A DNA stretch of 41,869 nucleotides from Candidatus Wolfebacteria bacterium. GTDB lineage: Bacteria > Patescibacteriota > Minisyncoccia > Phycocordibacterales > NVSU01. The position numbers and the translations under genes were made by a program. Under the pieces are notes generated by a model. It did not search any database, had not been told where the DNA came from, and worked only from the letters and a program-made list of their open reading frames with translations. Below are positions 16,685 through 40,081 of the stretch, piece by piece. Position 1 is the first letter of the stretch. Every line of letters starts with the position of its first letter. Location of the stretch: assembly GCA_002401345.1 (NCBI GenBank), contig NVSU01000010.1:82-41950 (forward strand), written 5' to 3'.

Positions 16685-16756
16685 AAATATTTAAATAATC
16701 ACTAATTATTAATCATTTATTGTTGGCTAAGGATTAAAGATTAAAGATCAAAGATG

Positions 16757-17092
16757 TTATTTTTGGTTTAGAAAAAATATTGTCACCGCTATCGCATAGT
16801 CTCCATCATGGCTAATACTTATGTCGTGGCTTAGTATCTTGCTGTGTACTTCTAATAGTTTGGCTTCTGGCCGCCCACTTTTGTTTTTAACAATTTCAAT
16901 TTCTTGCCAGTCTCCAGCCTTCATCTCTAGTGCTTTAATAACTGCTTCCTTCGCCGCAAATAATCCCGCTAGTGTTTCAATAGTAGGTGCGCCAGCTAAT
17001 TCATGCGGAGAGAAAATGGTATCTAATCTACCCTTCATTGATCTCTCAAATCTATTTATATCAACTATGTCGCAACCAGTTTTGACAATCAT
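16757..17092 (-). CDS. acpS: Holo-[acyl-carrier-protein] synthase (4'-phosphopantetheinyl transferase)
   Basis: MIVKTGCDIVDINRFERS...FAAKEAVIKAL...ISHDGDYAIAVTI; the ORF-track start at 17128 lies inside an inverted repeat, so the internal Met is preferred. Confidence 0.88.
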   Translation of the reverse strand: MIVKTGCDIVDINRFERSMKGRLDTIFSPHELAGAPTIETLAGLFAAKEAVIKALEMKAGDWQEIEIVKNKSGRPEAKLLEVHSKILSHDISISHDGDYAIAVTIFFLNQK

Positions 17093-30346: not shown

Positions 30347-30631
30347 CCCCAGTGAAATGATTTTAAGTCTATGAAAAAGTATTATTATATATATGTACTA
30401 CAGTCCCTGAGAGACAAGAAGTTATATATAGGATATACTAAGGACTTAAAATCAAGATTTGAGAATCATAATAAGGGGATGGTTGGATCTACAAAAGACA
30501 GACGACCACTTGAATTAATTTATTCTGAAGTATGTTTAAATAAAAATGATGCACTGCATCGAGAAAAATATCTAAAAACATACAAAGGTAAATTATTTCT
30601 CAGAAATCGTCTCAAATCTTATTTCACAGGG
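30347..30631 (+). mobile_element. Second, decayed GIY-YIG element between trpS and aspS
   Basis: Left CCCCAGTGAAATGAT, right ATTTCACAGGG. Codons upstream of the ORF (AAC CCC CAG TGA AAT GAT TTT AAG TCT ATG) align with AAT CCC GTA CGA AAT GAT AAG GTT ATG of the copy at 21877. Confidence 0.6.
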
Positions 30632-30634
30632 TGA
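30371..30634 (+). CDS. GIY-YIG nuclease family protein
   Basis: YYYIYVLQSLRDKKLYIGYTKDLKSRFENHNKG...HREKYLKTYKGKLFLRNRL. Confidence 0.92.
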   Translation: MKKYYYIYVLQSLRDKKLYIGYTKDLKSRFENHNKGMVGSTKDRRPLELIYSEVCLNKNDALHREKYLKTYKGKLFLRNRLKSYFTG

Positions 30635-32536: not shown

Positions 32537-33325
32537 ATGGAAACAACTCCGTACAAAGTGAAAACTGATGCATTCGAGGGTCCGCTTGATCTTTTGCTTT
32601 CTCTTATTGAAAAGAGAAAACTATTTATAAGTGAAATATCACTCTCTGAAGTCACTGATGATTATATTTCATATGTGAGTGCATTGAGTGAAACATCAGA
32701 TGACGAGCAGTCTGGTGGGATTCGAATGATAGACACAACGTACTTTATAGTTGTTGCCGCGACACTCATTTTACTAAAATCAAAATCACTCCTTCCAAAT
32801 CTATCTCTTACTGATGAGGAACAATCAAGTATTGAAGATCTTGAGTTGCGCTTGCGAATGTATAAAAAAATAAAGGAAGCGAGTGTACTTGTAGGAGATA
32901 CATTTGGAACGCGTATTATATTTTCTAAACCATTTATCAAAAGTGACATCTCTGTCTTTGTACCATCTGATTCGATTACTTTGAATTCGATGACCCTTAA
33001 CGTAAAAGACGTATTAGGTAGAGTTCCTAAAAAAGAATATAAACCTGATGTAAGAGTTACCAAAGTTATAAATATAGAAGAGATGATGGACACACTGACT
33101 GAACGGATGAAGAAAAGTATAAAGATGAGTTTTAAGGATTTTTCGGGAGATGGATCGGGAGGAAATAATAAAGAACAAAAAGTGTATGCGATTGTAGGAT
33201 TTTTGGCATTATTAGAACTTGTTCGTCAGGGATTGGTCCATGCAAGTCAGCATGATACATTTGGAGAGATACAAATGGAGAAAGAATCACCATATAGTGA
33301 TGAATTAGAAGACAAGAGTGTATAA
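32537..33325 (+). CDS. scpA: Segregation and condensation protein A
   Basis: FEGPLDLLLSLIEKRKLFISEISLSEVTDDYISYV...VAATLILLKSKSLLP; FLALLELVRQGLV. Confidence 0.94.
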   Translation: METTPYKVKTDAFEGPLDLLLSLIEKRKLFISEISLSEVTDDYISYVSALSETSDDEQSGGIRMIDTTYFIVVAATLILLKSKSLLPNLSLTDEEQSSIEDLELRLRMYKKIKEASVLVGDTFGTRIIFSKPFIKSDISVFVPSDSITLNSMTLNVKDVLGRVPKKEYKPDVRVTKVINIEEMMDTLTERMKKSIKMSFKDFSGDGSGGNNKEQKVYAIVGFLALLELVRQGLVHASQHDTFGEIQMEKESPYSDELEDKSV

Positions 33326-33330
33326 TTAAA

Positions 33331-33740
33331 AGCACCTAGGCTCTAGCATCTAGCAACTAGCGCATATGATACGAAATTACAAAAATTTAGAAGTATGGAA
33401 GAAATCAATGGATCTAACAGTTGCTATTTATTCATTGACCGATATATATCCAAAGGAAGAAATATATGGACTTACATCACAAATAAGAAGAGCAGCAGTA
33501 TCTATACCATCAAATATAGCAGAAGGAAAATTAAGAGGAACTGATTCCGAATTTAAAAGATATCTTTTTATTTCTTTTGCTTCAGGAGGTGAACTGGAAA
33601 CACAATTAGAAATATCAAAACGATTACCAAAAACTAATGAACTTGATTATTCAAGGGTTGATTCATTATTAGAAGAAGTTATGAAAATGTTAAATTCTCT
33701 AATTTCAAAGCTAGGTGCAAGTAGCTAGAAGCTAGGAGCT
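33331..33740 (+). mobile_element. Candidate cassette: S23 four-helix-bundle gene flanked by CTAG-rich imperfect inverted repeats
   Basis: Left GCACCTAGGCTCTAGCATCTAGCAACTAGCGC vs reverse complement of right GCTCCTAGCTTCTAGCTACTTGCACCTAGCTT, 23/32 identical by hand alignment; lies between scpA and scpB. Confidence 0.6.
33366..33728 (+). CDS. Four helix bundle protein (S23 / 23S rRNA intervening-sequence family)
   Basis: MIRNYKNLEVWKKSMDLTVAIYSLT...YGLTSQIRRAAVSIPSNIAEGKLR...FKRYLFISFASGGELETQLEIS. Confidence 0.93.
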   Translation: MIRNYKNLEVWKKSMDLTVAIYSLTDIYPKEEIYGLTSQIRRAAVSIPSNIAEGKLRGTDSEFKRYLFISFASGGELETQLEISKRLPKTNELDYSRVDSLLEEVMKMLNSLISKLGASS

Positions 33741-33745
33741 AAACC

Positions 33746-34291
33746 ATGGATTTAGATTCAAAAATTGAAGCATTACTTTTCTATAAAGGAGAGCCAATGT
33801 CATTCAAAAAATTATCAGATTATTTAAAGGTGAAGCCGGCAGAAATTGTTGAGGCACTTTCTGTACTTCAGGATAAGTTAGAGGGGAGGGGATTGTCACT
33901 TGTTATAAAGGAACAGAAGGTGATGCTCGGAACAAATAGTGAAATGGGTTCATTGCTGGAGAGTATGCGCAAGGAAGAGCTCACCAAGGAGCTTAGTAAG
34001 GCAAGTCTCGAAACATTGTCGGTCATTTTATATAAAAATGGAGTTGCACGCGGAGAAATTGACTACATTAGAGGAGTAAACTCAAGTTTTATTCTTCGAA
34101 GTCTCCTTGTTCGCGGACTCATAGAGCGAGTCACTCACGCGACTGATAGCAGAAAATATATTTACAAGCCAAGTTTCGACTTGCTTACTCATCTGGGTAT
34201 AACTCGTATTGATGACTTGCCCGAATATAGTACTATTAAGGAATCATTAGAAGAGGAAATTAATACACAAGAGGAGGAAGATATTAATTAG
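33746..34291 (+). CDS. scpB: Segregation and condensation protein B
   Basis: KIEALLFYKGEPMSFKKLSDYL; ELSKASLETLSVILYKNGVARGEIDYIRGVNSSFILRSLLVRGLIER. Confidence 0.94.
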   Translation: MDLDSKIEALLFYKGEPMSFKKLSDYLKVKPAEIVEALSVLQDKLEGRGLSLVIKEQKVMLGTNSEMGSLLESMRKEELTKELSKASLETLSVILYKNGVARGEIDYIRGVNSSFILRSLLVRGLIERVTHATDSRKYIYKPSFDLLTHLGITRIDDLPEYSTIKESLEEEINTQEEEDIN

Positions 34292-37538: not shown

Positions 37539-38648
37539 ATGCGTGTGACGAACAAGCCAGTCGATAAGTTTTTCCTTGGTATTGTTATCACACTTATTTC
37601 TATTGGAGTACTCGTATTTGTATCTGCTTCATTAGGTATTCTTCCTAAAAATACCTCGAAGTTTTATGGAGTACTCTTTAATCAACTTGTGCTTGGATTA
37701 GGTGTTGGTATAGGAGCAATAATTTTATTTTCTAAAATACATTATAAATTCTGGAGAAAATATTCTTTTTATATTTTTTTGGGGGCGATCATCGCAACAC
37801 TGATGGTATTTATTCCAGGTCTCGGATTTACTCATGGTGGTGCACGTCGATGGCTCTCAATTGGTCCTGTATCGGTTCAACCTGTTGAATTTTTAAAAAT
37901 TGCATTCATTATATATTTTGCAGGATGGCTCTCATGGGTAAAGAACAGAGTGCATGTTTTTAAATTCGGAATTTTACCATTTGCAATTCTGATGGGTATT
38001 ATTGCTGCGGTCTTGTTTGTACAACCTGATACGAAAAATTTCCTCCTTATATTATTAGTAGCACTGGCAATGTTTGTCGCATCAGGAGTTAAATGGAAAT
38101 ATATTTTAGGATTGGTTGCAGTCGCACTTATTGGAATTATCATACTGGTTTCCATGAAGCCATACCTTCTCACCCGTGTTAAGACATTTGTGGATCCAAG
38201 CAGCGATCCAACGGGTGCGTCCTATCAAATTCAGCAATCACTGATCGCAATAGGATCCGGTGGAGTGTTTGGAAGGGGATATGGTCAAAGCATTCAAAAG
38301 TTTAGCTATTTACCAGAGCCTCAAGGGGATTCAATCTTTGCAGTTGTAGGTGAGGAATTCGGATTTGTTGGAAGTACATTTATTATTCTCCTATATGTAG
38401 TCTTCGCATTTCGAGGACTGCGGATCGCGTACAGGGCTCCAGATTTATTTAGTAGACTTCTCGTCACGGGAATTGTTATACTGATAGTGGCTCAGTCATT
38501 TCTTAATATTGCGTCGATAATAGGAGTGTTTCCATTGACAGGAGTACCGTTGGTATTCATGAGTCATGGAGGTACATCACTTCTCTTGTCTATGGCTGCA
38601 GTTGGAATAGTATTGAATATTTCTAGGTATCAAAAGAAAGTGAACTAG
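37539..38648 (+). CDS. ftsW: FtsW/RodA/SpoVE family glycosyltransferase (FtsW-like)
   Basis: GGARRWLSIGPVSVQPVEFLKI, LPEPQGDSIFAVVGEEFGFVG, GVPLVFMSHGGTSLL; sits between mraY and murG. Confidence 0.93.
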   Translation: MRVTNKPVDKFFLGIVITLISIGVLVFVSASLGILPKNTSKFYGVLFNQLVLGLGVGIGAIILFSKIHYKFWRKYSFYIFLGAIIATLMVFIPGLGFTHGGARRWLSIGPVSVQPVEFLKIAFIIYFAGWLSWVKNRVHVFKFGILPFAILMGIIAAVLFVQPDTKNFLLILLVALAMFVASGVKWKYILGLVAVALIGIIILVSMKPYLLTRVKTFVDPSSDPTGASYQIQQSLIAIGSGGVFGRGYGQSIQKFSYLPEPQGDSIFAVVGEEFGFVGSTFIILLYVVFAFRGLRIAYRAPDLFSRLLVTGIVILIVAQSFLNIASIIGVFPLTGVPLVFMSHGGTSLLLSMAAVGIVLNISRYQKKVN

Positions 38649-38674
38649 CAACTAGCAACTAGTATCTAGGAGCT
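38644..38674 (+). repeat. CTAG-rich repeat resembling the right end of the S23 cassette
   Basis: ACTAGCAACTAGCAACTAGTATCTAGGAGCT-AAACTATG vs AGCTAGAAGCTAGGAGCT-AAACCATG at 33724-33748. Confidence 0.7.
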
Positions 38675-38684
38675 AAACTATGAA

Positions 38685-38815
38685 TCCCGTAGTAGAAAAT
38701 GGCATTAGTGAGATATTATATTTTTGATATGAACAACATAATTCTAAACTTTATAAATAATTTAAATTTTGGTTCACATGCTCTTGAAGGAGCAATGCCA
38801 TTTTTCACTACGGGA
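38685..38815 (+). repeat. TIR element unit 1 upstream of murG (close copy of 6050-6180)
   Basis: TCCCGTAGTAGAAAATGGCAT...ATGCCATTTTTCACTACGGGA; TGAA boundaries. Confidence 0.9.
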
Positions 38816-38819
38816 TGAA

Positions 38820-38951
38820 TCCCGTAGTAGAAAATTACATTGAGAGAAATTTATATTTTATACATCATATATGAATCGGAATTATACAAATAATAAAAAA
38901 AACGATGACGTACACGCTCCTCAAAGAGCTATGCCATTTTTCACTACGGGA
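38820..38951 (+). repeat. TIR element unit 2 upstream of murG (close copy of 6185-6317); final A begins the murG ATG
   Basis: Same ends; TGAA at 38952-38955. Confidence 0.9.
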
Positions 38952-40081
38952 TGAAAATTTTATTTGCCGGTGGTGGAACCGGAGGACATTTTTATCCAAT
39001 CATCGCAATTGCTGAGAAGATCAATGAAATAATTGATAAGGAAAAGATTGTTAAATCTAAACTTTATTTTATGTCTGACACTCCGTATGACTCTGTAGCA
39101 TTGTTTGATCACGGAATTGAATTTAAAAAAGTTGAAACAGGGAAAATACGAATGTATTTCTCAATACAGAATTTTTTTGATATTATAAAAACTTTTTTTG
39201 CTGTCTTTAAGGCACTTTTTAAAGTGTATAGAATTTATCCTGACGTGGTGGTAGGGAAGGGAGGATATGCAAGTTTCCCTGCACTTATGGCGGCTCGAAT
39301 ACTTCGAATACCTGTGGTAATCCATGAATCAGATTCATATCCCGGTCGTGTAAATAAATGGGCTGGAAAATTTGCTGAGCGTATCGCAGTGTCTTTTGAT
39401 GAAGCCGCTCAGTATTTTCCTAGTGACAGAACTGCACACACTGGACAACCTATTAGATCAGAATTACTACAACCTTCTAGTGAGGGAATGTTTGAATACT
39501 TAAAGTTAGACCCTACTGTTCCTGTGATTTTAATACTTGGAGGCTCTCAGGGTGCAGAAGTTATTAATAATGTAATACTTTCAGCACTCCCTGAGTTATT
39601 AAGTAAATATCAAATCATTCACCAGACAGGGAAGAAACATTTAAAGAATTTAAATGTGCGTGCAGAAATGATTTTAACGGATAGTCCATATAAAGATCGA
39701 TACAAGACGTTTGATTTTCTCGGAATACTTGCGACAAAAATGGCAGCGGGGGCTTCGGATATTATTGTTTCTAGAGCGGGATCTCAATTATTTGAAATTG
39801 CGATATGGGGTGTACCATCCATCATTATTCCAATTACTCACTCACATGGAGATCATCAGGCGCGTAATGCATTTAACTATGCACGATCAGGTGCCGCCAT
39901 TGCGATTGAGGAATCGAACCTGCAATCACATATTTTGTTGCAAGAACTCGATAAGCTAATGAAGGACGATAAAAAAAGAGAGGAAATGAAGCAAGCTGCT
40001 AAAAAATTTGCCACTCCAGATGCAGCAGAAAAAATTGCACAAGAAATTGTGAACATAGCATTGAGGCACGAATCCCGTTAG
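38951..40081 (+). CDS. murG: UDP-N-acetylglucosamine--N-acetylmuramyl-(pentapeptide) pyrophosphoryl-undecaprenol GlcNAc transferase
   Basis: MKILFAGGGTGGHFYPIIAIAE, VVGKGGYASFPAL, HESDSYPGRVNK, ILGGSQGAEVIN, ITHSHGDHQARNA. Confidence 0.96.
   Translation: MKILFAGGGTGGHFYPIIAIAEKINEIIDKEKIVKSKLYFMSDTPYDSVALFDHGIEFKKVETGKIRMYFSIQNFFDIIKTFFAVFKALFKVYRIYPDVVVGKGGYASFPALMAARILRIPVVIHESDSYPGRVNKWAGKFAERIAVSFDEAAQYFPSDRTAHTGQPIRSELLQPSSEGMFEYLKLDPTVPVILILGGSQGAEVINNVILSALPELLSKYQIIHQTGKKHLKNLNVRAEMILTDSPYKDRYKTFDFLGILATKMAAGASDIIVSRAGSQLFEIAIWGVPSIIIPITHSHGDHQARNAFNYARSGAAIAIEESNLQSHILLQELDKLMKDDKKREEMKQAAKKFATPDAAEKIAQEIVNIALRHESR

Follow-up and report, generated by a model that had tools for sequence, protein, structure and literature searches.

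Introduction

Why a gene for a small protein of the S23 family should separate scpA from scpB, two genes that are usually adjacent, is the question raised by a stretch of 41,869 nucleotides from a Candidatus Wolfebacteria bacterium, here called the window, which corresponds to contig C11 of a genome assembly of 24 contigs and 0.9 Mb. Proteins of this family (PF05635/TIGR02436) are common, and annotations usually call them “four helix bundle protein” or “S23 ribosomal protein” and assign no function; we know of no catalytic domain in them. The original prediction, made from the letters of the window, was that this S23 gene is a mobile single-gene cassette with inverted, CTAG-rich ends. Here, we follow that proposal from the window to its genome, to its order and to other bacterial phyla.

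The S23 cassette between scpA and scpB

The three genes of the junction were confirmed by profile matches, and their coordinates, together with those of the proposed element and its repeats, are collected in Table 1. The window S23 protein matches PF05635 at 9e-35 (119.5 bits, cut-off 33.8) and TIGR02436 at 1.3e-33 (115.5 bits, cut-off 24), and its relatives include proteins of Candidatus Yanofskybacteria and Nomurabacteria, which, like the small genome, points to a Patescibacteria/CPR bacterium. Its predicted fold is a four-helix bundle (pLDDT 91.3), with structural matches to 2gsc (TM 0.90) and 2rld (0.78–0.81), entries of five chains each, followed by the Avd protein of DGRs (4dwl, TM 0.76). 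Invariant residues of S23 are W11, Y22, Q39, R42, N50, E53, R57 and E76. S23 is the only open reading frame of the cassette, which therefore encodes no transposase, and an Rfam search of the window gave no match.

Table 1. Positions of the S23 element, its repeat arrays and the neighbouring genes in the window
Feature	Position	Strand	Basis or remark
Whole mobile element	33327..33743	+	TAAAAGCACC to GCTAAA; alignment with two deletion derivatives elsewhere in the genome
Left tandem-heptamer array (CTAG + NNN)	33331..33361	+	Inverted relative to the right array
S23 gene, 120 aa, four-helix bundle, PF05635/TIGR02436	33366..33728	+	Profile matches; predicted structure and fold matches
Right tandem-heptamer array, inverted	33710..33742	-	Overlaps the 3' end of S23
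scpA, upstream gene at the junction	32537..33325	+	PF02616, 4e-20
scpB, downstream gene at the junction	33746..34291	+	PF04079, 6.6e-37
Lone half-array of CTAG heptamers	38641..38675	+	After an ftsW-like gene; without a partner array and without S23

The imperfect inverted borders were also verified: the two arms (33331-33361 and 33710-33740) are 31 nt long and 77% complementary, a score unmatched at any other of the 1803 window positions tested at the same geometry. New relative to the original prediction is the heptamer periodicity of the arms, which are built of head-to-tail units with CTAG at 33336, 33343, 33350 and 33357 on the left, and with CTAG at 33711, 33725 and 33732 plus CAAG at 33718 on the right. 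The sequence CTAGNNNCTAGNNNCTAG, allowing at most one mismatch, has eight matches in the window, where 0.01 would be expected, with five in the arms of the cassette and three in the lone half-array, which is probably a solo end or a remnant. CTAG itself is, as had been supposed, under-represented in the window, if mildly so (59 observed, 72 expected), and the AAA noticed at both borders of the cassette is there, being uninformative as to target duplication. The right array overlaps the last S23 codons and supplies the stop codon (33726-33728), and it carries a GGAG (33735-33738) upstream of the scpB ATG, at a distance of 7 nt and not of 9 nt as first counted; the donation of a ribosome-binding site that had been suggested is not general, given that the right ends of the two deletion derivatives in this genome (...GATGCTAAAATATTTATG and ...GAGGCTAATATATG) lack GGAG.

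Three further places in the window were recorded. A GATTAAA half-array without S23 lies at 16725-16759, between a 4'-phosphopantetheinyl transferase gene and an AMP-binding/acyltransferase gene, and its repeat flavour matches that of another S23 lineage of the same genome (L002, below). Two tandem units of about 137 bp (38680-38955) lie after the lone CTAG array and before a murG-like gene; each is bounded by ATCCCGTAGTAGAAAAT ... ATTTTTCACTACGGGAT as imperfect palindromic ends, and they resemble a REP/BIME pair. Directly before aspS, a small GIY-YIG gene of 87 aa (30371-30634) has weak imperfect inverted flanks (...CGAATGAAATGAGTAACTATA / TATATTCGTTTCACTCATAAAT...) and is perhaps another mobile single gene.

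Copies and deletion derivatives in the same genome

The CTAG-array pattern is found at few places in this genome. Two short CTAG-type elements occupy two junctions of one operon on contig C4, and their alignment with the window cassette showed that both retain its ends together with the beginning and the end of the S23 reading frame, and that both lack an identical internal stretch of about 270 bp. The identical deletion indicates that one deletion founder reached two sites, and the array ends belong to the element, since they also border these internally deleted copies at other genomic sites. The borders given in Table 1 were inferred from the sequence common to both derivatives, so that the exact end base is good to within a few nucleotides. 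A further element of about 260 bp on contig C16 (L019) has both array ends around a decayed core.

Two more S23 genes of other lineages are present, one with GATTAAG-type repeats (L002) and one with AATTTTT-type repeats (L003). Three successive junctions of the secretion-like operon on contig C4 (L118, G000:C4:30000-44000) hold a derivative, an S23 gene and a derivative, in that order, the cassette being of the GATTAAG type and the two derivatives of the CTAG type, like the window S23.

Inverted tandem-repeat arrays around S23 genes in other bacteria

A PF05635 search of 98 genomes of the order, mostly metagenome assemblies, gave 91 S23 loci that were examined. Weak PF05635 matches on G008:C4, G018:C2, G023:C37 and G068:C9, which lie about 1 kb or less from reverse transcriptases, as expected of DGR Avd, were excluded from the S23 counts. 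The flanks of the 91 loci match themselves best at lags of 7 (0.637) and 14 (0.564), other lags giving 0.45–0.49 and control windows 350–540 bp further out giving 0.441 at lag 7. With an ungapped arm score, whose thresholds were set by eye and were the same for the controls, an inverted flank-to-flank match of at least 13 was reached in 58% of comparisons within elements and in 1.1% between elements (p about 1e-41), the outer windows giving 1.1% and direct matches 2.2%. The repeat is therefore specific to each element and common to its two ends.

The same was found beyond the order, in 58 loci from named genomes of Bacteroidota, Clostridia, Acidobacteria, Pseudomonadota, Fibrobacter, Verrucomicrobiota, Nitrospirota and others, where 76% reach the arm threshold (3.7% between elements) and the lag-7 self-match is 0.75 against 0.515. 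The threshold is missed by about 40% of the CPR loci and by 24% of those outside CPR, through decay, gaps or absence of arrays. One clostridial cassette (L142) has a near-perfect inverted match of 53 bp that includes a GC-rich part, GGGCGGGACACCCGCACCCGAT, beyond the heptamers.

The array unit consists of a conserved core and a variable spacer of 2–3 nt and is usually 7 nt long, periods of 8 and 9 occurring as well; some unit columns are conserved and others free in 57% of 115 elements at p<0.05 (combined p 4e-63). The unit register is matched between the arms in 22.9% of 96 elements at p<0.05, a modest effect from a selection-biased test. Repeat similarity rises with S23 protein similarity, none of 999 permutations being as strong. 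The general feature is inverted tandem heptamers whose sequence is element-specific, and CTAG was dropped as a defining feature, other S23 elements having other repeats.

Occupied and empty sites

The S23 insertions are scattered, and most of them lie after one gene's stop codon and before the start codon of the gene that follows. The scpA-S23-scpB order, whose conservation the original prediction had set against itself, did not recur, scpA and scpB being adjacent, on the same strand and free of S23 in 30 of 30 relatives, 13 of them with gaps of -11 to +14 bp. One scpA-scpB junction (L204) holds a 108-bp derivative with a different repeat (TAGTCTA), and a second (L208) seemingly does likewise. 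In the secretion-like operon, compared across eight genomes, each of three successive junctions may be empty (-1 to 14 bp), occupied by an S23 cassette, or occupied by a derivative of 90–204 bp, whose repeat flavour is usually that of the cassette in the same genome. S23 cassettes thus occupy different junctions in different species, which supports the mobility that had been proposed.

The clearest insertion was found in cyanobacterial plasmids, where S23 is present in Trichormus variabilis and Scytonema and absent from the plasmids of Nostoc linckia, N. carneum and Fremyella. The occupied and empty flanks are about 98% identical, the insertion is 424 bp long, and the empty site AAAAAGTAATTAAC becomes AAAAAGTAAT before the element and GTAATTAAC after it, that is, with a 5-bp duplication, which points to a staggered DNA cut but is one event, seen in two hosts. 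The Scytonema copy misses 14 bp, or two units, from its left array, and a truncated remnant is present at this site in a Nostoc plasmid (C052). Other candidate pairs were set aside: in Picosynechococcus, Nostoc C052, Aulosira and Calothrix the flanks were too diverged or differed by small replacements; a same-genus empty site (G089/G005) was not clean, with a short array remnant at the G005 site; and the “empty” Flavobacterium sites are occupied by short heptamer hairpins or other elements, so that no duplication is readable.

At the Flavobacterium junction that carries a cassette in some species, others hold short hairpins or a different S23 lineage. Two sets of loci in this genus (L317-L336 and L287-L316) describe a hot-spot junction, where S23 lineages, AAGANNN heptamer hairpins and other inverted-repeat elements are found according to species. 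Among the orthologous cassettes, both arrays switch together between clades, from GGTTCAAA to GGTTCTAA.

CRISPR operons are also interrupted, between cas6 and cas4 in Anabaena sp. 90 (L347) and between cas10 and cmr3 in Picosynechococcus PCC 7003 (L360), a relative being S23-free at each place, and such S23 genes could wrongly pass for CRISPR-associated genes. The left array of the Anabaena cassette has about 40 units, and its right array lies inside the annotated cas4 N-terminus. None of 40 non-CPR loci had S23 inside rRNA, and the phage records searched gave no match.

Discussion

Probably, the window feature is a copy of a mobile element whose sole gene is S23, whose ends are inverted arrays of short tandem repeats, and whose insertion as DNA is directed by S23. 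That both ends have one lineage-specific repeat, with conserved cores, suggests binding of the arrays by their own S23, and we propose that an Avd-like S23, pentameric by analogy, would bind the repeated cores of the two arrays, bring both ends together and direct their insertion as DNA, the strand transfer being carried out by S23 itself or by a host or trans-acting enzyme. Derivatives lacking S23 would be mobilised by a matching S23 supplied in trans. An insertion between two genes would be tolerated because it leaves both reading frames intact, often with a new stop codon from the array.

The cassette might instead be a passive passenger of a RAYT-like Y1 (HUH) transposase acting in trans, as REP elements are, with the role of S23 lying elsewhere, a reading we consider unlikely. 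Y1 transposases are present in the window genome (G000) and in most of its relatives, and in the order they accompany S23 conspicuously (40 of 45 genomes with S23, 19 of 53 others; OR 14.3, p=5e-8, uncorrected for phylogeny or for general mobile-element load); S23 has no known catalytic domain, and the derivatives fold as hairpins, which also count in favour of this reading. However, the Y1 genes are flanked by REP-like palindromes and not by heptamer arrays, a Y1 match is absent from 5 of the 45 S23 genomes of the order and from 6 of 18 non-CPR genomes with 1–5 S23 copies, and the repeats track the S23 lineage. To our knowledge, moreover, Y1 enzymes leave no target duplication, and the one clean case has 5 bp. 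DDE transposases (PF01609) were found in 13 of the 98 genomes, eight of them with S23, too few for a comparison. Somewhat less probable still is movement through RNA, with an Avd-like S23, a reverse transcriptase in trans, and arms that form an RNA stem as in the intervening sequences (IVSs) of rRNA. The resemblance of the S23 fold to Avd, the RNA stems of IVSs, which are cut by RNase III (PMC4990558), the good folding of the derivatives as RNA (z -2.6 to -7.1) and the frequent insertion within operons are in its favour; against them stand the lack of association between reverse transcriptases and S23 (p=0.54), the target duplication, and a plasmid copy antisense to both its neighbours. The arm mismatches show no G-U bias either (160 vs 189, p=0.13), which gives no support for selection of a sense-RNA stem.

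That S23 is an ordinary, non-mobile host gene surrounded by hairpin or regulatory repeats is very improbable and, as a general account, already contradicted by scattered positions, empty sites, the target duplication, several junctions with gene-less derivatives, and independent hits of the same junction by different S23 lineages. Its best case is Flavobacterium, where about 45 of 150 species keep an orthologous cassette at one site under strong purifying selection, with a median dN/dS of 0.118 among 29 orthologues; from this value it follows that the S23 protein matters, and such vertical persistence may reflect a host function of S23.

The DNA element directed by S23 can then be compared with known systems. 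The S23-encoding IVSs of 23S rRNA (Coxiella, Leptospira; PMC4990558), for which older proposals of mobility are cited in the same work, are its closest counterpart in anatomy: the Coxiella IVS has 428 nt (about 417 in the window), an S23 reading frame, a 28-bp terminal stem as inverted ends, three tandem GACAGAT heptamers before the reading frame, a heptamer number that varies between strains, and a 176-bp internal deletion of the reading frame in one strain. It differs in its position inside 23S rRNA and not between protein genes, and the S23 cassettes have element-specific arrays at both ends, empty sites and a target duplication. We therefore do not file the window element as an IVS; it seems to be an element of the same kind at a different location, and, given this common anatomy, the S23-encoding IVSs are probably the same elements landed in rRNA. 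Like insertion sequences and MITEs, the S23 cassettes have terminal inverted repeats, internally deleted derivatives and, in one case, a 5-bp duplication; unlike insertion sequences, they have no transposase gene, and their ends are tandem arrays whose unit varies by element, so that the window element is not a classical insertion sequence. REP/RAYT elements are likewise short, intergenic, repeat-ended and apparently mobilised in trans, and genomes with S23 commonly have RAYT-like genes, but REP ends are palindromic and some S23 genomes have no Y1. With the Avd of DGRs, S23 shares its fold and the pentamer, known for S23 from the homopentamer of X. campestris (PMC4990558), whereas the S23 cassette is a single gene with arrays and no adjoining reverse transcriptase; those of the window genome lie on contigs C17 and C10, not on C11, and the window element is therefore not a DGR. 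In the open literature, with subscription papers and preprints mostly outside our scope, we found no description of heptamer-ended S23 cassettes in general.

In summary, the same architecture with a lineage-specific repeat surrounds S23 genes in many bacterial phyla, apparently a type of mobile DNA that is widespread and has largely escaped notice. More tentatively, we propose that the S23 elements form a distinct class of mobile DNA across phyla, in which S23 would read arrays of 7–9 nt units and direct insertion without a known recombinase, the IVSs being its 23S members. Should S23 prove to be the only gene of a mobile element whose ends are defined, many annotated genomes could be reread, and the S23 genes in secretion and CRISPR operons would be explained as insertions and not as working parts. 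The long-open origin of the 23S rRNA intervening sequences would become directly testable, and, with repeat flavour coupled to protein lineage, a small pentamer related to DGR Avd may have a natural specificity code.
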